Shown here: positions 1,863 through 21,796 of the stretch, one piece after another
How the letters are laid out: every line of letters starts with the position of its first letter
Position numbering within the stretch: the stretch's first letter is position 1
Assembly (NCBI GenBank): GCA_946186495.1
Contig: CAMHNQ010000024.1
Span: forward strand, 1 to 41,754
Reading direction: 5' to 3'
DNA length: 41,754 bases
Origin: an uncultured Bacteroidales bacterium
GTDB lineage: Bacteria > Bacteroidota > Bacteroidia > Bacteroidales > WCHB1-69
Translations under genes and position numbers: made by a program
The notes under the pieces: generated by a model
Databases searched by the model: none
What the model was told of the DNA's origin: nothing
The model's input: the letters and a program-made list of their open reading frames with translations, nothing else

Positions 1863-3920
1863 CTATTTCACCAGCGTCACCGTTCCGGTCCTTTCCATAG
1901 GGGTGCCGTCGGGAAGCTTGTATTCAATGTACCAGACGTAGACATTCATGGGCGCGATGATGCCGTTGATGCGGCCATCCCAACCCTCCTGCGGATTGGT
2001 GGTCAAGAAGATGCATTCGCCGGAGCGAGTGAATATCGAGAGTCGGTAGCCGTCTAAGGAGACAAACGAGTTCAACGGCCGGAAAACGTTGTTGTTCGCC
2101 CCGAGCGGCCGGAAAGCGTTCGGCACGTACAAGGTGGGCGGTTGCACCACTGTGACTTGGTTGGAAATGCTCGTCTCCTCAAAACCGAATTGGTTGGTGT
2201 TCTCTTGAGCCTCAATATAATAGGTGAATTTGGAACCGGACTCGTAGAGGGACGAGATGTCGTCGCTGTAGTTGTTCATGGGGAGCGCCGGTGTCATCCC
2301 CACCGTGTTGAACAACTCTTCCGTCTCCACTTTCCGCATGACGAAATAGTGCGCCACTTCTCCATCCCAATTGTCGTAGCCATGCCACGACAGCACGTTG
2401 TTCTGCGCATTGTTCTCGGCATGCAGCAAAAGGTTGTGCGAGACATTCGACTGCCCGACCTCTGCGCCGCAGCTGTTGAGTACGAACGTCCGGTAGTGGT
2501 ACTGCTTTCTGTTGAAGTCCGCCGTGCTGTCGTTGAACGTATAGTTGCTCTCCCCAGGGAGATAGCTCTTCGTCGCCAGATTCTCGAAGTCAGTCCCGTT
2601 CTCGCTGCGCTGCAGGGTGATGGACTGGAACGGGAGCGAGTCGCCGCTTGTCAACACGCGGATGCGCACGTAGTTGTTGTCGATGACCGAGACGGAACGG
2701 ATGTAGGTGAAGTCCTGCGCCTCGTCTGCGGTGATGGCGAACGAGATGCGGTTGGAACTTGCCGTCACGGTCGCACCGTTGTTCACAACCCGGACGAAGA
2801 CGATATAGTCCTGGTTGAGGTCGAGTCCCTCGATCATGTAGCTTGTTTCAGTGGTGGAGCCTACGACGTTCCAGTTCTGCCCGTTGTCGCTGCTCAGCAG
2901 CACTTCGAAATGGTGGATGTCGTTGAAAAGGTTGGCGTAGGTGGTCCAGTGAAAAGATGCAGTCTTCAGGCAGGCGTCGGTGCCCTGCATCTGCAGCCCC
3001 ATGTTGCACTGCTGGTTGTTGGTCAGGGGAGATACATTGCCGCACGAGTCCATCGCGGCGATACGGTAGTAACGAGCGTCGTAGGTTGGGTCGATCACGG
3101 GGTCTATCCAGAAAGTCTGTCCATAGACGGTGTCGAACGGGATGGTGCCGTTGGGGTTGATGTAGTAGATGATGTATCCCATCATGTAGGGGTCGGTCTC
3201 ATGGAAACCGAGCATGACCTCGTTGGTTGGGGTGACGGTGACGCTGTCCAGCACCGGCGGTGACGGGCTGGTGCTGTCAACCAAGTGCACCGACCCGATG
3301 GTGGTCATGAACGGGCAGCGTTCGTTGACCCCGTAGTTGTTGTAGATGCTCACTTGGTAGGAGATGATGTTGTCGCACACGTCGGATGTGTCGGTGTAAT
3401 GCAACTGGGTGTTAGGGACTGATGCGAAGGGCGTCTGGGGGAAGTCCGCCTCGAAACCGCGCTTCTTGTAGATGTCGAAGGTGGAGCCCCAGCCGGCATC
3501 TAACGTGATGGTCGGCGATTCCCATTCGATGAAAGCCATCGTGTTGTTACTCAACGGCGTGACCGTGATGCTGATGGAACGTATCGTGTCGGAGTGGTAG
3601 TGGTTGCCGTTGGAATCCACCGCAACGATATAGCAGAAGTAGTCCGATGAGGAGGGTATGTTGTCAATGTCTTTGGATCCGTAGTCGCATAAGGTGAAGT
3701 TCTGCGTGGCACTGCTGTATCCGAACAGGCTGTCGCATAAGATGTTGTTGATGTAGAAATAGTAGGCTTTGAAATGGATGCAGTCGCCGGTGCTGCTCCA
3801 TGCCATTTTCATGCGCTGATTGTTGTTCATCAGTTTAAGGCATTGCATTTTAGGAGGTTCCCATGCGTGGCAGCCCAAAAGCAGCGACATCCATAATATG
3901 ATAAATGCGGTCTTCTTCAC
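1863..3920 (-). CDS. Secreted fibronectin-type-III-like protein with T9SS type B (CHU_C) sorting domain
   Basis: This 685-residue protein starts with a signal peptide ending LLLGC, which could also be a lipobox. The middle consists of several beta-rich repeats of about 90-100 residues with fibronectin type III character (phrases such as TSYMIEGLDLNQDYIVFVRV and LSWHGYDNWDGEVAHYFV). Residues about 594-685 are a gliding-motility-associated C-terminal domain: PNAFRP near its start, then LSIFTRSGE, GWDGRINGIIAPMNVYVW and a final TGTVTLVK. In Bacteroidota that domain sends proteins through the type IX system to the surface. The gene lies 9 bases after the M16 homologue and is the last of a four-gene operon led by an ECF sigma factor. 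The ligand is unknown. The domain call is firm; the role as a surface adhesin or sensor is inference. Confidence 0.85.
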   Translation of the reverse strand: MKKTAFIILWMSLLLGCHAWEPPKMQCLKLMNNNQRMKMAWSSTGDCIHFKAYYFYINNILCDSLFGYSSATQNFTLCDYGSKDIDNIPSSSDYFCYIVAVDSNGNHYHSDTIRSISITVTPLSNNTMAFIEWESPTITLDAGWGSTFDIYKKRGFEADFPQTPFASVPNTQLHYTDTSDVCDNIISYQVSIYNNYGVNERCPFMTTIGSVHLVDSTSPSPPVLDSVTVTPTNEVMLGFHETDPYMMGYIIYYINPNGTIPFDTVYGQTFWIDPVIDPTYDARYYRIAAMDSCGNVSPLTNNQQCNMGLQMQGTDACLKTASFHWTTYANLFNDIHHFEVLLSSDNGQNWNVVGSTTETSYMIEGLDLNQDYIVFVRVVNNGATVTASSNRISFAITADEAQDFTYIRSVSVIDNNYVRIRVLTSGDSLPFQSITLQRSENGTDFENLATKSYLPGESNYTFNDSTADFNRKQYHYRTFVLNSCGAEVGQSNVSHNLLLHAENNAQNNVLSWHGYDNWDGEVAHYFVMRKVETEELFNTVGMTPALPMNNYSDDISSLYESGSKFTYYIEAQENTNQFGFEETSISNQVTVVQPPTLYVPNAFRPLGANNNVFRPLNSFVSLDGYRLSIFTRSGECIFLTTNPQEGWDGRINGIIAPMNVYVWYIEYKLPDGTPMERTGTVTLVK

Positions 3921-3929
3921 GGGTATTGT

Positions 3930-5228
3930 TTATTCGTTTGACAAATCTTTCCCAACGACAATTCGGGTGAAATTATTGTAAGAAAAATATTTGCGTGCCA
4001 GATGTTGGATGTGTTCTGGTGTAATATGCTTGATTTCAGTAAGATATTGTTCCATTTCAGATTCGTTTAATCCGAAGCGAAGCCAGTAGGCGAATTTTTG
4101 CATGATGTTCACGGTGGTGTCGATTGCGCGTAGTTGAAGTCCGGCTATGTAGTTTTTCACCATTGCGAGTTCGTCTTTGCCAACAGGCTCGTCCTGAAGC
4201 CGTTGAAGCTCTTCAAAGCAAGAGTCCAAAGCCCGTTGGGTCTCTTCGGCTTTCACGTCGCTGCTGATGGCGAAGACAGACTGGTTCCCGAAAAAGGTGC
4301 TGGAGGACGAAATACCGTACGTGAGTCCTTGCCGCTCACGTAGATTCTGCATCAGGCGAGAACTGAAGTATCCGCCGGTGAGGGTGTTGAGAACGGAGAA
4401 GCCCCTCCTGTCAGGGTCGTTGAAGCCCATGGAAAGGCTGCAGATTACAATGGAGGATTGCAGGCATCCGGGCATGGGGTGGCAGATTGGCCGGCTCTGG
4501 TTTTCCGGGGCATGGATGCCAGGGAGTTGCGGCGCGCGTCTCCCGTTTGGAATCCCGGACCAACATTCCCGTATGAGGGCCTCCACAGTGTCGTCTGTGT
4601 TGCCGGTGACGTAAATTGTCACGTTCTCGGCGCAGAAACTGTCTCGGTGGAATGATTCCAGCTCCTGGACCGTTATGTTGTTGATAGAACTTGGTGTGGC
4701 GTATTCCGCCACTGTGGGGAACGTGTCGCGCAGCATCTCGCGCCACATCAGCCGCCATGACCAATAGTCGGTCTTTTGCTCGTTGTAAGCCAGGTTCTTC
4801 AACTCCTTGTCCTGCATGATTCGCAGGTTGGCCGTCCGGTACTCGGGGCAGGTTGCGAAGCGGGCGATGACGGGCAGGATGTCGCCCATGTTGTTCTTCG
4901 GAATGGAGATGAGCATCTGCACGTGATCCATCCCCACATTCGTTGTGACATTAGTACCGTAGTAGTCCAGCTTCTCGGCGAGCTCTTCCGGGGAAAAGTC
5001 CGGTGAGCTTTCGCGTAGCAGCGAGTAGGCGAAGTTGCAGACATGCTTTTTGGGCTGGTACAACGAACCGGTTCTCACTTGAATCAAGAGGTGTATTAAG
5101 TCCAGGTTCGGATTTTCGAAATAGTAGATGGGGATGCCGTTGTCTAGGCTGCTCTTTCTTGGTGTTGGAAGGGGGAAAATCCCAATCGGTTGTATCTTAG
5201 GGGGTTGTGATCGATCTGTTTGGCTCAT
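3930..5228 (-). CDS. M16-family (insulinase-like) peptidase homologue lacking the zinc motif
   Basis: The 432-residue protein has the M16 fold. It has the N-terminal half (LDNGIPIYYFENPNLDLIHLLIQVRTGSLYQP), the central segment with VTGNTDDTVEALIRECW, and the C-terminal half with RRGFSVLNTLTGGYFSSRLMQNLRERQGLTYGI, the usual GG-x-FSSRLxxxLRE-x-GLxYG signature. The catalytic HxxEH motif expected near residues 60-70 is absent: the aligned stretch reads KKHVCNFAYSLLRESS. It is therefore probably a non-catalytic subunit or binding protein. No active M16 partner is adjacent. There is no clear signal peptide, so it may be cytoplasmic. The start ATG shares one base with the stop of the upstream CHU_C gene (TAATG), which implies translational coupling. 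Confidence 0.85.
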   Translation of the reverse strand: MSQTDRSQPPKIQPIGIFPLPTPRKSSLDNGIPIYYFENPNLDLIHLLIQVRTGSLYQPKKHVCNFAYSLLRESSPDFSPEELAEKLDYYGTNVTTNVGMDHVQMLISIPKNNMGDILPVIARFATCPEYRTANLRIMQDKELKNLAYNEQKTDYWSWRLMWREMLRDTFPTVAEYATPSSINNITVQELESFHRDSFCAENVTIYVTGNTDDTVEALIRECWSGIPNGRRAPQLPGIHAPENQSRPICHPMPGCLQSSIVICSLSMGFNDPDRRGFSVLNTLTGGYFSSRLMQNLRERQGLTYGISSSSTFFGNQSVFAISSDVKAEETQRALDSCFEELQRLQDEPVGKDELAMVKNYIAGLQLRAIDTTVNIMQKFAYWLRFGLNESEMEQYLTEIKHITPEHIQHLARKYFSYNNFTRIVVGKDLSNE

Positions 5229-6169
5229 TAGGGTATTAATAAAACTTGTCCTTGTTGCGTTTGCTCGTTGCCGTTGCTGTCTTTGAATTTGATGATGTAG
5301 GGGTAAACGCCGTGAGGGAGGGTGCGTCCGTGCATCTTGCCGTCCCAGCCGATGCGGATGTCGCGGGCGGTGAACATGAGGTCTCCGCCACGGCTGTAGA
5401 TGAAGATTTCATAGTTTTTCGGCTCGAAATTGGCGTTCACGTAGAAGAGGTCGTTCAGGCCGTCTCCGTTTGGCGTGAAGGCCGAAGGGATGAAGAACTC
5501 GTCGTTGGCAGCAGATTCCTCCGCCGGGTTGTTTTTCGGGAAGTCGTCGGCGATGTCCTGTTGGCCGGCGTCCATCTCCTCGGTTTCGTAGGCGGATTTG
5601 GCGGGTCTGTGGGACTCGATCTTGAAATCCTCTTCAGTGACGGGTTTGCTGACTCGTTCGGGTGTCGTCAGGATGCTGTCACGGGTGAGGGGCGGTTGAA
5701 AGTTGCAGACGCTGGAGACGCCTTTGCCGGCGTAAGTCTGCCGTGCTTCGGCGACAGTGGCCTGCATCCTGCGTTCCTGGTTGGCGGCTTCTTTCGTGAT
5801 GGCTTGGTTGTTAGGGGTTGACGTGGTCTGGTATTCAGGCGTGTGGGGAGGCACGGAGGCTGGCGAGCCGTCGGCGGAGGGCACAGCGGGTGCGGCAGGC
5901 CCCGCAGGGGGCAGTGCCGGCGCCTCGATGGAGGCCGACTGACCCTGGTTGGTCGTTTTCTCGTGGTCTGTAAGTGTCTTGAAAAGTATGGGGATGGCGA
6001 TTAGCGAGGCGGCTACTCCTGCGATGAGTGCGGCACGGCCTCGCGGGGACATTTTCGGCCTGCCCCCGAACTTCTGCACGTAGCGGCTGTCGTTGACGAT
6101 GGTAGCCCACTCCTGCTCCGACACCGGGGAGGTCAAGTTCCGCAGCTCTTCTATAGGATTGTTTTTCAT
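5228..6169 (-). CDS. Single-pass membrane protein with CHU_C domain, probable anti-sigma factor
   Basis: About 313 residues from the ATG at 6169, which lies 4 bases after the sigma factor stop. An in-frame ATG at 6196 would overlap that gene by 23 bases. The N-terminus (about 45 residues, with SEQEWATIVNDSRYVQKFGG) is hydrophilic. One membrane helix follows at about residues 46-63 (AALIAGVAASLIAIPILF), then a Pro/Ala/Ser-rich linker. Residues about 222-313 form a CHU_C domain (FIPSAFTPNGDGLNDLFYV, IFIYSRGG, GWDGK, QGQVLLIP). Its place after an ECF sigma gene and its inside-helix-outside layout are those of an anti-sigma factor, but I see no recognised anti-sigma motif. A T9SS sorting domain on a protein with an internal anchor is odd. 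Confidence 0.75.
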   Translation of the reverse strand: MKNNPIEELRNLTSPVSEQEWATIVNDSRYVQKFGGRPKMSPRGRAALIAGVAASLIAIPILFKTLTDHEKTTNQGQSASIEAPALPPAGPAAPAVPSADGSPASVPPHTPEYQTTSTPNNQAITKEAANQERRMQATVAEARQTYAGKGVSSVCNFQPPLTRDSILTTPERVSKPVTEEDFKIESHRPAKSAYETEEMDAGQQDIADDFPKNNPAEESAANDEFFIPSAFTPNGDGLNDLFYVNANFEPKNYEIFIYSRGGDLMFTARDIRIGWDGKMHGRTLPHGVYPYIIKFKDSNGNEQTQQGQVLLIP

Positions 6170-6173
6170 ATCG

Positions 6174-6746
6174 TTATAGGTAAGTGTATTCTTCATTTCT
6201 CAAATATTTCCGTATCTTTTCGCGCAAAACGGAACGGGCGCGTGAAATCATCGTGCGGACATTGTTCTGGCTCTCATCCATCATCCTGGCAATCTCCTCC
6301 TGCTCGTAACCGTCGATGATGAAGAGGTTGAAAGCGGTCCGTGTCTTGGGTTTCAATCTGTTGATGAACCCCAGCAACACCTCCATCGGGATTTCGTCGT
6401 ATTCGTGGCCGTCGTCGCGAGGCAGGTCATATTCAATCTGGCTCATTGGAATGGCCTCCTTGATTTTCTTGTGCCGCAGATAATCAATACATTTGTTGAT
6501 TGTTATCCGCCGAATCCATCCCCCTAAAGAGGTGATGTCGCCGAACTCCGCAAAATGGGTCAGAACGAAGATGAAGACATCGTGGAACAGATCCCCGGCT
6601 TCGTCAGCGTCTCCCGTGTAGCGCAGGCAAATGCCCTTGACCAACGGGCCATAGTCCAAGTAGAGCCTTTTCTGGCATGCCGGATCCCCCTTTCTGCATC
6701 CTTTGATGATCTCTATTTCTTGTTCGGTCAGCATCTGATTCAACAA
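6174..6746 (-). CDS. ECF-type RNA polymerase sigma factor
   Basis: A 190-residue sigma-70 family protein of ECF size. Region 2 includes YLDYGPLVKGICLRYTGDADEAGDLFHDVFIFVLTHF and WIRRITINKCIDYLRHKK. Region 4 includes LKPKTRTAFNLFIIDGYEQEEIARMMDESQNNVRTMISRARSVLREKI, a helix-turn-helix that would contact the -35 region. Regions 1 and 3 are absent, as expected for this group. ATG at 6746 is used; an in-frame ATG four codons later is equally plausible. It heads an operon with the membrane CHU_C protein, the M16 homologue and the FN3/CHU_C protein. The likely scheme is that the next gene's product holds it inactive at the membrane. No clear promoter is visible in the 50-base gap upstream. Confidence 0.92.
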   Translation of the reverse strand: MLNQMLTEQEIEIIKGCRKGDPACQKRLYLDYGPLVKGICLRYTGDADEAGDLFHDVFIFVLTHFAEFGDITSLGGWIRRITINKCIDYLRHKKIKEAIPMSQIEYDLPRDDGHEYDEIPMEVLLGFINRLKPKTRTAFNLFIIDGYEQEEIARMMDESQNNVRTMISRARSVLREKIRKYLRNEEYTYL

Positions 6747-6796
6747 CTCAAAGACGAAATAGTTGTGAAAATGTTACAAAAAAAGTTCAGCAGGGG

Positions 6797-10407: not shown

Positions 10408-11361
10408 ATGAGAATGTCGTTAAACAAGTGCCTTTTGGGGTTGTGCCTTGCGGTTTTGTCGCTGCTTTCCGGATGCCAGCGCGAGGTGGAACTGGACCTT
10501 CCCGGCTATGAGTCGAAGCTGGTAGTGGAGGGGACCATTGAGAACGGATCCCCTGCGGTGGTCATGCTTTCTAAGAGCATCCCCTACTTCTCTGAAATCA
10601 GCTTCGCCACCCTGACGAGCGACGTGCTGGTCAACGGATCGCAGGCCCGCGTGTTCGTCACGGCCGAGACCGGAGAGTCCGAGGAACTCAAATGGACCCT
10701 GTCGCCCGATGCTCCCTATTACGTGGCTTTCATGGGAAAAGATGTGATCGGACGCGAACAGACCCGCTATACCCTCACTGTTGAGTATGACGGTAAAACA
10801 TATACTGCAGAGACCTATATTCCCAAAACCTTCGACCTCGATTCGATAGGTTTCAGCCAGTCACCGGACATGGCAGACACCATGGCCACTATCCGGGTGC
10901 TGCTCAATGACCCTGCCGGCGAGGAGAACTTCTACGCCTTTTTCTGCAAAGTGAGCTGTCCTAAGGTGCACGACCGCCTATGGGTGGCCGGACTTCCAGT
11001 CGCTTTCGACGACATCGCCTTCAGCGGCCAATCCATCAACTACGAGGTGACGCGTTCGGGATACCCCTATCTGATGGGGGGCATGCTGAGCGAGGAAGAT
11101 CAACGGAACTTCCGCCGTGTCACGTTCCGGCCTGGGGACACTGTCTATGTGAAACACACCCAGGTCGATTACAGCACCTACCAGTATCTGTTGTCGGCCG
11201 GTTCCGAAGCCGCCTATGGGAGCAGCCCTTTCACCAACCCCCTGCCGGCTTTCACTAACTTCAACAGCGACGAGGTGCTGGGGCATTGGAGCGGTTTCGC
11301 CGCCAAAACGGACACCCTCGTCTGGTGGTGTGACAATTATTGGGAATTGTTCGGGGAATAG
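10408..11361 (+). CDS. DUF4249 lipoprotein
   Basis: A 317-residue lipoprotein. The signal sequence has a hydrophobic core (LGLCLAVLSLLSGC) ending in a clear lipobox with the lipid-bearing Cys about residue 23. The segment after it (VELDLPGYESKLVVEGTIENGSPAVVMLSKS) is the hallmark of DUF4249, a Bacteroidota family usually encoded beside TonB-dependent receptors and thought to work with them at the outer membrane. Here the next gene is an MMPL exporter instead. ATG 10408 is used; ATG 10414 is a near alternative. A possible -7 box (TATTTTCG) at 10383-10390 would give a leader of about 11 bases. Confidence 0.85.
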   Translation: MRMSLNKCLLGLCLAVLSLLSGCQREVELDLPGYESKLVVEGTIENGSPAVVMLSKSIPYFSEISFATLTSDVLVNGSQARVFVTAETGESEELKWTLSPDAPYYVAFMGKDVIGREQTRYTLTVEYDGKTYTAETYIPKTFDLDSIGFSQSPDMADTMATIRVLLNDPAGEENFYAFFCKVSCPKVHDRLWVAGLPVAFDDIAFSGQSINYEVTRSGYPYLMGGMLSEEDQRNFRRVTFRPGDTVYVKHTQVDYSTYQYLLSAGSEAAYGSSPFTNPLPAFTNFNSDEVLGHWSGFAAKTDTLVWWCDNYWELFGE

Positions 11362-11387
11362 GGTTTGTAGTTCAGAGATTAGAGATT

Positions 11388-13811
11388 ATGTTTTTTGTGA
11401 AGATTTATCGTTTTTTTGAAAAGCACAACATTTTATTATATACATTGATGGCACTCAGCAGCCTGGTTTTCCTGTTCTATGGATTAAAGCTGGAGTATGA
11501 GGAGGATTTGTCGAAGCTGCTCCCGGTGTCGGAATCATCGGATGCAGGGCATGTGTTCGGGAACCTGAAGGTGAAAGACAAGATTTTCATGCAGGTGACC
11601 GGAGCTGACCCCGAGGCTCTTGCCGGGTATGTGGACGAGCTGATGGACTCTGTGCTCACCGACAGTTCCGGAATCGCCAACGTGCTCTACAAAATTGAGC
11701 CCGAAGTGGCTCTCAACGCCCTCTATTTCGCAATGGAACATGTGCCCTCTTTCGTGGACACCACCCTATACCCGCGCTTCGACGAAGCCATCGCCAGGGC
11801 GGGCGAGACGATGGCGCATAACAAGGAACTCATCATGAACGATGAGACTGGCACCGTCACGGAAATGGTCTCCACCGATCCGCTCAACTTGCGCCAGTAT
11901 CTGATGCCTGCCATCTCAGACGGGGTGGGCTTCTCCATAGTGAACGACCACCTCTTCTCGGCCGACAGCACAGTGGCACTGATATTTATATCCCCCGATT
12001 TCCAGGCTTTCAACTCGCATGCAGGACGTTTGCTGATGAAGAATATCCGGCATCATGTCAAGGTTTTCTCGGAGGCGCATCCTGACGTGGAGGTGCTGAT
12101 GCACGGAGCCGCCGTCCGTTCGGGCGACAACTCACGGGTGATGAAACGCGACATCGGCATCACAGTAGGCATCTCATTGACCATCATCCTCTGCCTTCTC
12201 AGTCTTTGCTTCAAAAGCGCCAACATCGTATGGCAGAATGTGTTGCCGGTGGCCTATGGGACTTTCTTCGCGATGGCCTGCATGTACTGGGTCAAAGGCA
12301 GCATGTCGCTCATGGCCATGGGCATCGGCTCGGTGGTGTTGGGCGTAGCCATCAGTTATTGTTTGCATGTTGTTGTACATCAACGTTATGTTGGAGAAAT
12401 TGAGCAGATGCTGAAGGAAGAGGCGCGGCCGGTTTGCCTGGGATGCCTCACTACCATCGGCGCGTTTGTCGGACTGTTGTTCACCCAAAGCGAATTGCTG
12501 AAGGACTTCGGCATGTTCGCGACGTTTGCCCTAATCGGAAACACTTTCTTCGCGCTGGTCTTCTTGCCCCATTTCCTGAAAAAGGGTGAAACCAAACGCA
12601 ACGAATCGGTGTTCAGATACATAGACAAAATCAACACCTACGCCTACGACCGAAATCCCTATATGATAGGCGGACTGTGCATACTGATATTGATTGGTGT
12701 CGTCTTTTCCCCGAAGGTGCAATTCGACAACAACTTGAAACATATTGGTTTCGAGAGCAAGGCGTTGCACAAGTCCGAGAGCCTCTATGAGGAGAAAAAC
12801 ACCCATGGGAATTTGCAGCGCTACTATGCGGTCATCGCCCCGACTTTGGACCAGGCACTGGATGCCAACAAAGGGCTCTCCGACACGTTAGAGGCCATGA
12901 AGAATGCTGGCGAGCTGGCATCCTACATGCCAATCGTGTCGATGCTCTTCCAATCGGAGGCGGAGCAGGATAAACGGATAGCGGCTTGGGATCGTTACTG
13001 GACTTCCGGGAAAGTCGGCGAGGCAATGGCTGCGGTGCGGGCTGCTGCAGTCTCGAACGACCTGCCCGCCGATATTTTCGCACCGTTCGAGAGCATGGTG
13101 ACGGCCGAGTATGCCCCCGGCAACCTCTACGGTGCAGATATCCTCCCGGAAGGGCTGTTATGCAATTTTATTGAAGAGAGTGAAGGGAAATATTTGATTT
13201 TCAACGCCGTGCAAATGAATAAGGAAAAGAAGAGCGAGATTGACGACAGGGTGGCGGCGGTGCAGCATGCCTTAGTGGTGGATCCCTTCTACTATACGGG
13301 GAATATGATAGCCTTGATACACAGTGATTTCAATACAGCATTGCTAATCTCCGCCATCTTTGTGCTGGTGGTGTTGCTCTTCTCCTTCCGGGATGTCCTC
13401 TTGGCTCTGCTCGCTTTCCTGCCGATGTTCCTCAGCTGGTATGTCGTGCAAGGCTGGATGGCCATCATCGGGTTGCCTTTCAATCTCATTAACATTGTGA
13501 TTTCCACCTTTATCTTTGGTATCGGCGTTGACTACAGCATTTTCGTGATGCAGGGCCTGATTGCCGAGCAAAACAACCAGGGCACAAGCCTGCTGCAATA
13601 TCACAAAGTGGCCATCTTCTTCTCGGCTCTGGTTCTGGCTATTGTAATGGTGACGATGCTGTGCGCCATCCATCCGGCCATCAAGTCCATCGGCATCTGC
13701 ACCCTCATAGGGATGGCCTCCACCATATTCATCACCTACATGCTGCAACCGCTCCTTTTCCGCTGGCTGATGAAGTTGCCTTTCATGCGCAAGCGTGTGG
13801 GCAAAAAGTGA
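11388..13811 (+). CDS. RND-superfamily exporter, MMPL/HAE-3 type (copy 1)
   Basis: A protein of about 807 residues starting at MFFVKIYRFFEKHN (ATG 11388), chosen because the paralogue at 19305-21725 starts with the same words. It has two repeats, each a periplasmic loop followed by a block of membrane helices, about 12 helices in total. Helix 1 is LLYTLMALSSLVFLFYGL. The first block contains VLGVAISYCLHVVVHQRY and the second VISTFIFGIGVDYSIFVMQGL, the G-x-x-x-D-Y motif where RND pumps use acidic residues for proton coupling. MMPL proteins export lipids and other hydrophobic molecules. It starts 26 bases after the DUF4249 stop with no promoter between them, so the two are probably cotranscribed. 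Confidence 0.9.
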   Translation: MFFVKIYRFFEKHNILLYTLMALSSLVFLFYGLKLEYEEDLSKLLPVSESSDAGHVFGNLKVKDKIFMQVTGADPEALAGYVDELMDSVLTDSSGIANVLYKIEPEVALNALYFAMEHVPSFVDTTLYPRFDEAIARAGETMAHNKELIMNDETGTVTEMVSTDPLNLRQYLMPAISDGVGFSIVNDHLFSADSTVALIFISPDFQAFNSHAGRLLMKNIRHHVKVFSEAHPDVEVLMHGAAVRSGDNSRVMKRDIGITVGISLTIILCLLSLCFKSANIVWQNVLPVAYGTFFAMACMYWVKGSMSLMAMGIGSVVLGVAISYCLHVVVHQRYVGEIEQMLKEEARPVCLGCLTTIGAFVGLLFTQSELLKDFGMFATFALIGNTFFALVFLPHFLKKGETKRNESVFRYIDKINTYAYDRNPYMIGGLCILILIGVVFSPKVQFDNNLKHIGFESKALHKSESLYEEKNTHGNLQRYYAVIAPTLDQALDANKGLSDTLEAMKNAGELASYMPIVSMLFQSEAEQDKRIAAWDRYWTSGKVGEAMAAVRAAAVSNDLPADIFAPFESMVTAEYAPGNLYGADILPEGLLCNFIEESEGKYLIFNAVQMNKEKKSEIDDRVAAVQHALVVDPFYYTGNMIALIHSDFNTALLISAIFVLVVLLFSFRDVLLALLAFLPMFLSWYVVQGWMAIIGLPFNLINIVISTFIFGIGVDYSIFVMQGLIAEQNNQGTSLLQYHKVAIFFSALVLAIVMVTMLCAIHPAIKSIGICTLIGMASTIFITYMLQPLLFRWLMKLPFMRKRVGKK

Positions 13812-19304: not shown

Positions 19305-21725
19305 TTATTTTTCCACTTTGCGTTTCATGTATGGCCATTTCATCAGCCAGCGGAACAGCAGCGGCTGTAGCGTGTAGGTGATCAAGATGGTGGAGATCAT
19401 GCCGATCAGCGCACATTCGCCGATGGAGACGATGGTCGGATGTTTGGCGAACAGCATAGCACCCATCACGACAATCAACACCAAGGCGGAGAAGAAGATG
19501 GCCACTTTGTGGTATTCCAGCAGGCGGCTCTGCTCCTGACGCTGACTCTCGATGAGTCCCTTCATCACGAAGATGCTGTAGTCGACGCCAATACCAAAGA
19601 CAAAGGTGGAAATCACGATGTTGATCATATTGAATGACAGCCCGAAAATCGCCATCCAGCCTTGTACCACATACCAACTCAGGAACATGGGCATGAAGGC
19701 AAGGAGCGATATGAAGATGTTTCGGAAAGATACCAGCAACACCACGAACACGAAGATGGACGATATGAGCAATGCCATGCTGAAGTCTTTGTGAATCAAG
19801 GAAATCAAGCCTCCAGTGTAATACATGGGATCCACCACTACGGCATGAGGGATGGAGGCAACAAGGTCGTCCGTCTCTTTCAATTTTTCTTTTGATAACT
19901 TTGGAGCGTTGAAAATCAAGAACTTGCCATCGGTCTCTTCGATGAAGTTGCAGAGCAGGCCGTCAGGGACAATGCCGGATTCGTAAAGGTTGCCCGGTTC
20001 GTATTCCGCTTCGACCATGGCCTGGAACGGCACGAAAATATCGGGGGAAAGGTCGTTTTTCGATGCGGCGGACTTCACGGCAGCCATTGCTTGCGCCACC
20101 TTCTCCGGAGTCCAGTAACGCTTCCATGCAGCTATGCGGTTTTCCTGTTCGGCTTGCGACTGGAATAGCAGTGACGCCACCGGCGTGTAGGAACTCAGGT
20201 CGCCGGCCTTGCGTAACGAATCCAATGTGGAGGCCAGTGCCATGTTGGCGTCCAAAGCCTGGTCCAATTCATCGGCAGTGACGGCATAATACCGCTGTTT
20301 TCCGCCTTGGTCGTTTTTCTCCTCATACAGATCCCGGGACTTTTTGAAATCCTCGCTTTCATAGCCGATGTGCTTCAGGTCGTTGTCGAACTGCACCTTG
20401 CCGGAGAAAATGAATCCGATAAAGATGATGATGCACAATATTATGATAATGAACTTGTTGCGGTCATATGGATAGTTGTTGATTTTGTCAATCAGCAGGA
20501 AAGCTTTTTTGCTGTGCTTGGCATCTTTCACGTTCAGGAAATGGGGCAGGAAGACTAAGGAGAAGAAGGTGCTGCCGAGGAGCGCGAAGGTGGCGAACAG
20601 GCCGAAATCCTTCAACAGCTCGCTTTCGGTGAACATCAGGCCGAGGAACGCGCCGATAGTGGTGAGGCAGCCGAGGCAAACGGGGAGGGCTTCATCCGCC
20701 AACATCTGCTCAATATCGCCGACAAATCGCTGGTGCACAATTATATGCAGGCAATAGCTGAGCGCAACGCCCAAAATCACAGCACCCACCCCCAAAGCCA
20801 TCAGCGACATGCCGCCCTTGATCCAATACATGCAGGCCAACGCAAAGATGGTGCCGTAAAGGATGGGCAGCACATTCTGCCAGATGATGTTGTAACTCTT
20901 GAAACTGAGGCATAAGTAGACGAGAATCAGTATTAACGAGATGCCGATGGTGAGGACTATATCCCGTTTTATGGTGCTGGCATTGTTGGCCGACTCCACC
21001 ACCGCGCCATGCATCAACACCTCGACATCCGGATGTGTCTTGTTGAACTGTTGGATGCACTGGCGGAGGTGTTTGACCAGTTTCCCGCCTTCTTGGGAGT
21101 TGAAAGTCTGGAAATCGGGGGCGATGAAAATCAACGCCACGGTGCTGTCGGGGCAGAACAGATGCCCGTCGATGAGAGTGAACCCCATGCCGCCGGAAAT
21201 GTCGGGCATCAGGCACTCGCGCAGTCCCAACGGGTCCGTGGAGACCAACTCCGAAGCCATGCCGCTTTCGTCATTCATGATCATTTCGTGGTTGCGTGCC
21301 ATGGTTTCATCGGCGTGGGCAATGGCGGTGTCGAATAGGGCGTACAGGCTCGTGTCCACGAACGACGGCACGTGTGTCATGGCATAGTCGAGCGCGTTGA
21401 GGGCCATGTCCGGTTCCAGACGGTAGAGCGTGTTGGCGATGCCCTCGTCGTCGGTCAGGATTGAGTCCATCAGCTCGTCGACATATCCGACCATCACTTC
21501 GGGCTCCGCACCCGTCATCTGCATGAAGAGCTTGTCCTTCACCTTGATGTTGCCGAAAACCAAACCGCTTTCCGATTCGCTGGATTTCGGTAAAAGTTTC
21601 ATCAAATCTTCTTCGAAATGCGCTTTCGCTGCAAAAAAAGCGAAAACGACGCTGCTTGTCACTATGAGAGCGTACAAAAGGAATTTGTGCTGTGTGAAGA
21701 AACGGTAAATTTTTACAAAAAGCAT
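19305..21725 (-). CDS. RND-superfamily exporter, MMPL/HAE-3 type (copy 2)
   Basis: 806 residues from the ATG at 21725 (MLFVKIYRFFTQHK). An ATG at 21788 is rejected because it lies upstream of the -7 box at 21776-21783. The protein aligns end to end with copy 1, sharing long identical stretches such as SFVDT, DSTVALIFI, LPVCLGCLTTIGAF, LPMFLSWYVVQGWMAI and FGIGVDYSIFVM. It has two periplasmic loops and two blocks of about six helices. The neighbours differ: this copy is followed by the LolA-like gene and is divergent from the serine palmitoyltransferase gene, which suggests export of a sphingolipid or related lipid. That substrate is inference. Confidence 0.9.
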   Translation of the reverse strand: MLFVKIYRFFTQHKFLLYALIVTSSVVFAFFAAKAHFEEDLMKLLPKSSESESGLVFGNIKVKDKLFMQMTGAEPEVMVGYVDELMDSILTDDEGIANTLYRLEPDMALNALDYAMTHVPSFVDTSLYALFDTAIAHADETMARNHEMIMNDESGMASELVSTDPLGLRECLMPDISGGMGFTLIDGHLFCPDSTVALIFIAPDFQTFNSQEGGKLVKHLRQCIQQFNKTHPDVEVLMHGAVVESANNASTIKRDIVLTIGISLILILVYLCLSFKSYNIIWQNVLPILYGTIFALACMYWIKGGMSLMALGVGAVILGVALSYCLHIIVHQRFVGDIEQMLADEALPVCLGCLTTIGAFLGLMFTESELLKDFGLFATFALLGSTFFSLVFLPHFLNVKDAKHSKKAFLLIDKINNYPYDRNKFIIIILCIIIFIGFIFSGKVQFDNDLKHIGYESEDFKKSRDLYEEKNDQGGKQRYYAVTADELDQALDANMALASTLDSLRKAGDLSSYTPVASLLFQSQAEQENRIAAWKRYWTPEKVAQAMAAVKSAASKNDLSPDIFVPFQAMVEAEYEPGNLYESGIVPDGLLCNFIEETDGKFLIFNAPKLSKEKLKETDDLVASIPHAVVVDPMYYTGGLISLIHKDFSMALLISSIFVFVVLLVSFRNIFISLLAFMPMFLSWYVVQGWMAIFGLSFNMINIVISTFVFGIGVDYSIFVMKGLIESQRQEQSRLLEYHKVAIFFSALVLIVVMGAMLFAKHPTIVSIGECALIGMISTILITYTLQPLLFRWLMKWPYMKRKVEK

Positions 21726-21775
21726 ATTGAACCTTGATAATTTTCTACAAAAAAGTCTTTTATTTTTAGCGGCGG

Positions 21776-21783
21776 CAAAATTA
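21776..21783 (-). promoter_or_regulatory. -7 promoter box TAATTTTG for MMPL copy 2
   Basis: An exact TAnnTTTG match on the minus strand, 51 bases before the ATG at 21725. It lies only 13 bases from the oppositely oriented SPT box, so the two promoters share upstream DNA. Confidence 0.6.
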
Positions 21784-21796
21784 CACAAATTTTATG

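Follow-up and report, generated by a model that had tools for sequence, protein, structure and literature searches.

Anti-sigma factors that reach from the cytoplasm to the outer membrane have been described as Dma1 and Dma2 (PMC13088901) and as Reo, which follows the extracytoplasmic function (ECF) sigma factor EcfO in Bacteroides fragilis and Phocaeicola vulgatus (PMC9308784, PMC13114119). Dma is presented with an adjacent ECF sigma factor, an N-terminal sigma-binding segment, one helix, a long disordered tether and a C-terminal domain directed to the outer membrane (PMC13088901). Here we describe a related locus on contig CAMHNQ010000024.1 of an uncultured Bacteroidales bacterium (assembly GCA_946186495.1, GTDB lineage WCHB1-69), the whole of which (41,754 nucleotides) is referred to below as the window. 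It holds a two-gene unit on the minus strand, with an ECF sigma factor gene (6734-6174) followed by the gene of a protein, here named B, ending at 5228. B appears to be an anti-sigma factor of the Dma kind that has a sorting signal of the type IX secretion system (T9SS) for its outer anchor, and we consider it rather probable that it couples transcription of T9SS cargo genes to the status of the T9SS, the coupling itself being what we infer.

All the Dma features listed above have an observed or predicted counterpart in B, the likeness being drawn from the layout as published. B differs from Dma by a CHU_C (type B) domain in place of the beta-barrel, by predicted targets among T9SS cargo genes and by an M16-like third gene; because the beta-barrel is replaced, B was considered as a variant and not as a Dma protein in the strict sense. 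EcfO-Reo has the same order of sigma and envelope-spanning anti-sigma factor, whereas its anchor is a barrel and its regulon includes nigD genes (PMC9308784, PMC13114119). An earlier note on this DNA, made from the sequence alone, knew of no characterised system of this layout, a statement superseded by Dma1/Dma2 and EcfO-Reo, which share it but use a beta-barrel for the outer part (PMC13088901, PMC9308784, PMC13114119). In Porphyromonas gingivalis, PorA, a T9SS protein with a C-terminal sorting domain (CTD), influences through PorXY an ECF sigma factor, SigP, that controls T9SS genes; unlike B, PorA is a separate surface protein acting via a two-component system, and the available part of that report describes no anti-sigma segment (PMC7712824). 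Type B CTD cargo of Flavobacterium johnsoniae, which works with PorP/SprF-like shuttles, belongs to the same CTD family as B, but a Sec signal peptide is part of the T9SS substrates as described there, and a sigma-linked cytoplasmic segment is not described in the available text (PMC12618676). A CHU_C-bearing anti-sigma factor was not found in the open-access literature searched, a scope outside which the founding Dma1 paper (PNAS 2024) lies.

The sigma factor (6174..6734, minus strand) was identified by Pfam Sigma70_r2 (E 1.5e-14), Sigma70_r4_2 (E 1.9e-12) and TIGR02937 (91.4 bits), with sigma2 at about 6465-6665 and sigma4 at about 6231-6377. Its likely start is the ATG at 6734 rather than 6746, because the relative at locus L021 begins MLTE; the interval first drawn for the pair, 5228..6746, thus keeps its end at B and loses its sigma start. 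B (5228..6169, minus strand) is predicted to be an anti-sigma factor with a T9SS type B sorting domain. Its longest open frame runs from 6196 to 5228, and relatives begin at the second methionine, 6169; this conserved start leaves a gap of 4 bp from the sigma stop to B. From the N-terminus, B comprises a segment called here the N-module (residues 10-55, with Trp30; 6032..6169), a single transmembrane helix (about residues 55-73; 5978..6034), a low-complexity linker rich in Pro, Ala, Ser and Thr (about residues 74-235, some 160 residues; 5492..5977) and a CHU_C domain (residues 236-318; 5231..5491), so that the earlier description of a hydrophilic N-terminus, one helix, a Pro-rich linker and CHU_C after a sigma gene was right by Pfam, TIGR04131 and hydropathy. 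CHU_C was detected with PF13585 (E 5.1e-17, 62.2 bits against a cut-off of 27) and TIGR04131 (E 8.2e-16, 57.9 bits against 35), and its positions are conserved among the aligned B proteins. The tryptophan is invariant in each of the three N-module alignments (A1, A2, A3), and Trp30 is unchanged across 61 aligned B proteins with 17-48% identity to B.

Topology and linker were called using hydropathy and composition only. The helix (mean hydropathy 2.13 over 19 residues) is internal, after about 45 predicted cytoplasmic residues; positive residues precede it, and a clear cleavage site is not apparent by eye. Net charge is greater on the N-terminal than on the C-terminal side of the helix in 105 of 107 CHU_C-type members, and an N-in topology is predicted by the positive-inside rule. 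The linker, with a median length of 164 residues in 107 members (range 65-291), is predicted to be a periplasmic tether. A search of solved structures with alignment A2 returned one credible CHU_C relative, the grappling hook protein GhpA (9flp, E 1.2e-7), and the same search with profile A1 (N-terminal segment) returned nothing judged credible.

The pairing of sigma factor and B was then followed in the family. Among 104 genomes of the same GTDB family, all have a match to B, mostly through CHU_C; the pairing was scored at 87 loci, which come from 82 genomes and were selected for a CHU_C frame of about the length of B. An ECF sigma open reading frame lies directly upstream on the same strand at 85 of these 87 chosen loci (31/31 for L021-L051, of which L021 and L025 are one contig, and 54/56 for L052-L107), and the two loci without a sigma factor, L100 and L107, resemble ordinary cargo. 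The gene pair for which a search had been suggested is no chance arrangement in this family, and sigma/CHU_C pairs are found elsewhere in the order as well. The window's genome itself has a second sigma/CHU_C pair on contig C31 (L111:3374-4855), with other neighbours, and its two pairs sit apart on different branches of the sigma tree.

Beyond the family, profile A1 matches in 238 of 295 order genomes (E 0.01) and profile A3 in 104 of 395 genomes of a phylum sample (E 1e-4). Among the N-module loci retrieved, which are high-scoring matches and not a random sample, 85 of the 86 from the order beyond the family, and 30 of the 30 from the phylum sample, have a sigma factor upstream. CHU_C types supplied the N-modules for profile A1, which tilts the order sample towards CHU_C; A1 nevertheless also detects barrel-type proteins beside ECF sigma factors. 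In the 86 order proteins (E 0.001), the C-terminal domains are CHU_C (25), OMP_b-brl_2 (34) and PKD_4 (12), and a PKD domain precedes CHU_C in all of ten hand-picked longer CHU_C members, in five of which CHU_C falls under the Pfam cut-off. A further type of outer module is found at L239:969-1736 (G156:C72), where an ECF-paired N-module protein carries a T9SS type A signal (24.4 bits against a cut-off of 23). Five phylum members with the N-module beside ECF sigma factors (L164, L171, L173, L175, L177) have frames of about 250 residues with a short C-terminal part, and at L245 (G326:C270, minus strand, 301-2091) an ECF-adjacent frame of 600 residues shows four tandem matches of the Trp N-module, a protein that might hold several copies of sigma.

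In a tree of 82 sigma factors (including 2 outgroups), CHU_C partners interleave with partners labelled as barrel, a label given here and in the coupling set to proteins of at least 340 residues without CHU_C, and backed by a Pfam OMP_b-brl_2 match in only 34/86 and 27/45 proteins. The CHU_C label requires 6 changes on this tree, 3 of them forced by well-supported branches; the interleaving implies repeated exchange of the outer module within a single kind of sigma pair.

Contacts between the N-module and sigma were addressed by mean-field coupling on 211 sigma/N-module pairs (108 CHU_C, 94 barrel-labelled and 9 short; duplicate loci and L245 and L255, with repeated modules, excluded), of which 208 retain the Trp. 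The top inter-protein score is 3.10, whereas 12 local re-pairings reach 1.54 at most. In the two best couplings, one helix-1 position is joined with two sigma4 positions, and within the top 25 this position is also joined with two further ones in sigma4; sigma2 is the main partner of N-module positions near the Trp. In class I anti-sigma domains, one helix 1 residue couples with two sigma4 residues, and helix 4 couples with sigma2 regions 2.1/2.2 (PMC7406223); the best couplings of B and sigma strikingly resemble this geometry. That B acts as anti-sigma factor to the ECF sigma encoded ahead of it, as the earlier note had supposed, is a prediction well supported by computation, through near-constant pairing, a common N-module, the sigma2/sigma4 coupling pattern and a motif at the sigma gene.

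This motif, TTTGTAAC-N13-TTTCGTC (6753..6780, minus strand), is of ECF promoter type and lies about 18 bp 5' of the sigma start codon. In the form TTTGYAAC-N13-TTTCGTC (28 bp), it is the sole exact match in the window's genome. Of the 84 regions upstream of family sigma genes, 29 contain the shorter pattern GYAAC-N16-CGTC (shuffled sequences: mean 0.02, maximum 1), and the sigma gene is predicted to be autoregulated. The looser pattern CAAC-N17/18-GTC precedes sigma in 33/84 family loci, 19/24 order CHU_C loci and 19/57 order barrel loci, with at most 2 per shuffle.

New here is that the motif of the sigma gene also stands before genes of secreted proteins in 15 congeneric genomes, where 59 matches with at most one mismatch to the 28-bp motif were found, against 21 for the reversed pattern. 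These 59 comprise 10 sigma operons, 27 matches of the class TTTGYAAC-N13-TTTCGTY (CGTY class, picked post hoc after a few matches had been seen, by coordinates, before CHU_C genes), 6 others inspected and 16 remaining. Behind the 27 non-sigma CGTY matches, NCBIfam models identify TIGR04131 (type B) in 19 proteins and TIGR04183 (type A) in 2; the rest are five truncated or short frames (incomplete at L334, L338 and L351; short and type A-related at L339 and L345) and one match with no cargo gene (L348). By eye, 26 of the 27 genes begin with a hydrophobic, signal-peptide-like stretch (20 by a stricter script rule), and the assigned start codon is 20-45 bp downstream of the motif in 20 of 27. In 7 of the 27 the frame is open across the motif, so that the start codon is an assumed one. 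The products are of several unlike kinds, with lengths near 585, 750, 780 and 970 residues, in addition to type A and fn3 groups. None of the six matches of other form (L358-L363), compared with the CHU_C profile only, matches it; the frame at L359 is incomplete and resembles a cargo group.

A matrix built from 15 sigma promoters only was applied to the window's genome, where it scores 23.4 before a type A cargo gene and 16.5 before a type B one, the background maximum being 11.5 in 122 stretches of the window. For a second lineage, with its own motif, 25 exact matches were obtained, 15 of them with a locus: 2 at the sigma gene, 10 before genes with exported-like starts (by eye), 2 in coding sequence and 1 unclear; among those 10 genes, the five longest frames end short of the C-terminus. 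This second lineage gives weak support to a cargo motif. The sigma factor probably reads T9SS cargo promoters.

SprA is present in 278 of 295 order genomes, including that of the window, which has 20 CHU_C matches and 3 PorP/SprF proteins over cut-off. At E 0.01 the N-module is matched, in some cases weakly, in 15 of the 17 SprA-negative order genomes. CHU_C was matched by none of the N-module proteins retrieved from these 17, and a Pfam scan of 45 proteins (15 from SprA-negative genomes and 30 from the phylum sample) gave CHU_C in 0 and OMP_b-brl_2 in 27. CHU_C is over cut-off in 3 of the 17 SprA-negative genomes; these are 74-82% complete, so that SprA may merely be missing from the assembly. 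One further genome, nearly complete, has a single CHU_C match below cut-off. The conservation of CHU_C, the relatives with PKD, the lack of CHU_C in N-module proteins of SprA-negative genomes and the motif at cargo genes together give indirect support to a link of B with the T9SS.

The gene following B (3930..5228, minus strand) overlaps it by stop and start codons and encodes an M16-like peptidase protein (PF05193, E 9.7e-32) without HxxEH, a motif present in 0 of 54 relatives. An M16-like gene is next to B in 52 of 85 family loci; elsewhere in the order, 10 of 24 CHU_C-type loci have it in this place. Loci of other types that extend at least 300 bp beyond B number 80 (57 order, 13 SprA-negative and 10 phylum, the last out of 30), and it was seen in none of them. 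This gene (3930-5228; L021:6557-7975) was thus seen only beside CHU_C-type pairs. It is probably the third gene of the operon; its product may be cytoplasmic, because its start shows no evident signal peptide by eye, and could possibly take part in signal release.

In the mechanism that we propose, the N-module of B would act at the inner membrane as a clamp on sigma, between sigma2 and sigma4, the helix would span this membrane and the disordered linker would reach across the periplasm. CHU_C would be engaged, with B still anchored, by the T9SS translocon or by a PorP/SprF-like shuttle and would tie B to the outer membrane, as an analogue of the beta-barrel of Dma/Reo anti-sigma factors. Altered engagement, through a free or working T9SS or through competition by cargo, would be passed inward by pull or proteolysis and free sigma for transcription of its own operon and of a set of cargo genes of the T9SS; cargo supply would in this way track T9SS capacity. 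Release when the T9SS can take substrate would match supply to capacity, and release on blockage would be less sensible for cargo genes.

The logic is that of the flagellar pair FlgM-FliA: there, the sigma factor controls late cargo of a secretion machine, and the anti-sigma factor bears the signal for export by that same machine. The proteins and the secretion systems are unrelated, and FlgM is soluble and leaves the cell whereas B is membrane-anchored. A loop of this kind, in which the T9SS export signal would serve as the sensor, engagement would free sigma for cargo genes, and signal and barrel would have been exchanged between lineages, appears plausible to us, at somewhat less than an even chance.

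Several observations weigh against the mechanism proposed above. The cytoplasmic part of B enters 15 of the 25 best couplings while making up 54% of columns, and it is hardly enriched since helix columns are involved in the other 10. Independent tree-pair tests go in the same direction and are not significant (median p 0.5, 0.375, 1 and 0.125); common descent may thus account for some of the coupling. An acidic/Arg combination that is common among the pairs is missing from that of the window. The pattern CAAC-N17/18-GTC was found before sigma in none of the 25 phylum barrel loci and in 2 of 14 SprA-negative loci. At two mismatches, the motif shows no excess in the window's genome (21 matches, control 23); 13 stretches near the estimated starts of other CHU_C genes of this genome score at most 12.2 on the matrix, one just above 11.5; and the second-lineage motif gives 87 matches against 70 for its control. 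No porP/sprF gene neighbours B, the three PorP/SprF proteins being encoded on contigs C4 and C6 and the window being C24. Work on F. johnsoniae indicates that a type B signal determines export as well as the place where the protein ends up, and three orphan proteins of this type use one common shuttle (PMC12618676); B, as an orphan, could use a common shuttle in the same manner. The proposal that the CHU_C of B would be nearest to that of its own predicted cargo was rejected (34% identity, against up to 37% for others).

The alternative that survives best keeps B as an anti-sigma factor and makes CHU_C a structural or generic outer-membrane anchor, the signal being envelope stress as proposed for Reo. 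In its favour, the same N-module is also joined to beta-barrels, antibacterial toxins induce a pair of the Reo type, with envelope stress as the signal that the authors suggest (PMC9308784), and Dma2 affects vesicles (PMC13088901). This fits poorly with a motif that precedes T9SS cargo genes in the congeners and with an M16-like gene seen only with CHU_C types, and we consider it unlikely. In a second alternative, another ECF sigma factor, SigP-like, would read both the cargo promoters and the sigma operon, with B in its regulon; being compatible with B as an anti-sigma factor, it overlaps in probability with the other readings. SigP does control T9SS component genes in P. gingivalis (PMC7712824), and a motif match cannot name its sigma, which also counts against the reading that we favour. 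The exact motif at this sigma's own gene, the related motifs before the paired sigma in several lineages (33/84, 19/24 and 19/57) and a -10 element that differs by lineage (by eye), as self-regulation would predict, nonetheless make a SigP-like reader quite unlikely. Finally, that B is ordinary T9SS cargo made together with sigma, with its helix as a signal peptide and its CHU_C part exported and released, agrees with the conserved CHU_C positions and with the PKD domains of some relatives, as in secreted proteins, but is very improbable in view of the conserved cytoplasmic segment with a near-invariant Trp ahead of the helix, the N-in charge bias (105/107), the coupling with sigma, the occurrence of the same segment ahead of barrels and the lack of a cleavage site clear to the eye.

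Next on the same strand lies a gene (1863..3920) for a protein with fn3 (E 2e-6) and a weak CHU_C (23.2 bits, under the Pfam cut-off of 27; 27.5 bits in the genome-wide search), and the gene order including it is identical at the relative locus L021. Elsewhere, the window encodes two large membrane proteins with many helices that resemble each other and, by eye, the MMPL/RND kind (11340-13811, plus strand; 19305-21788, minus strand), one of which may be a duplicate of the other.

Preferring the coupling of cargo transcription to T9SS status, we regard the layout of Dma/Reo anti-sigma factors as modular: these comparisons suggest that one sigma-binding head is combined with a beta-barrel, a type B signal, PKD plus a type B signal or, once, a type A signal. 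The combination of PKD and CHU_C is frequent in secreted surface proteins. The route known to us, PorXY-SigP, concerns components of the machine and not the matching of T9SS cargo production to export capacity in Bacteroidota. An anti-sigma factor that bears an export signal, together with a motif before cargo genes, would be a direct and testable candidate for this matching.

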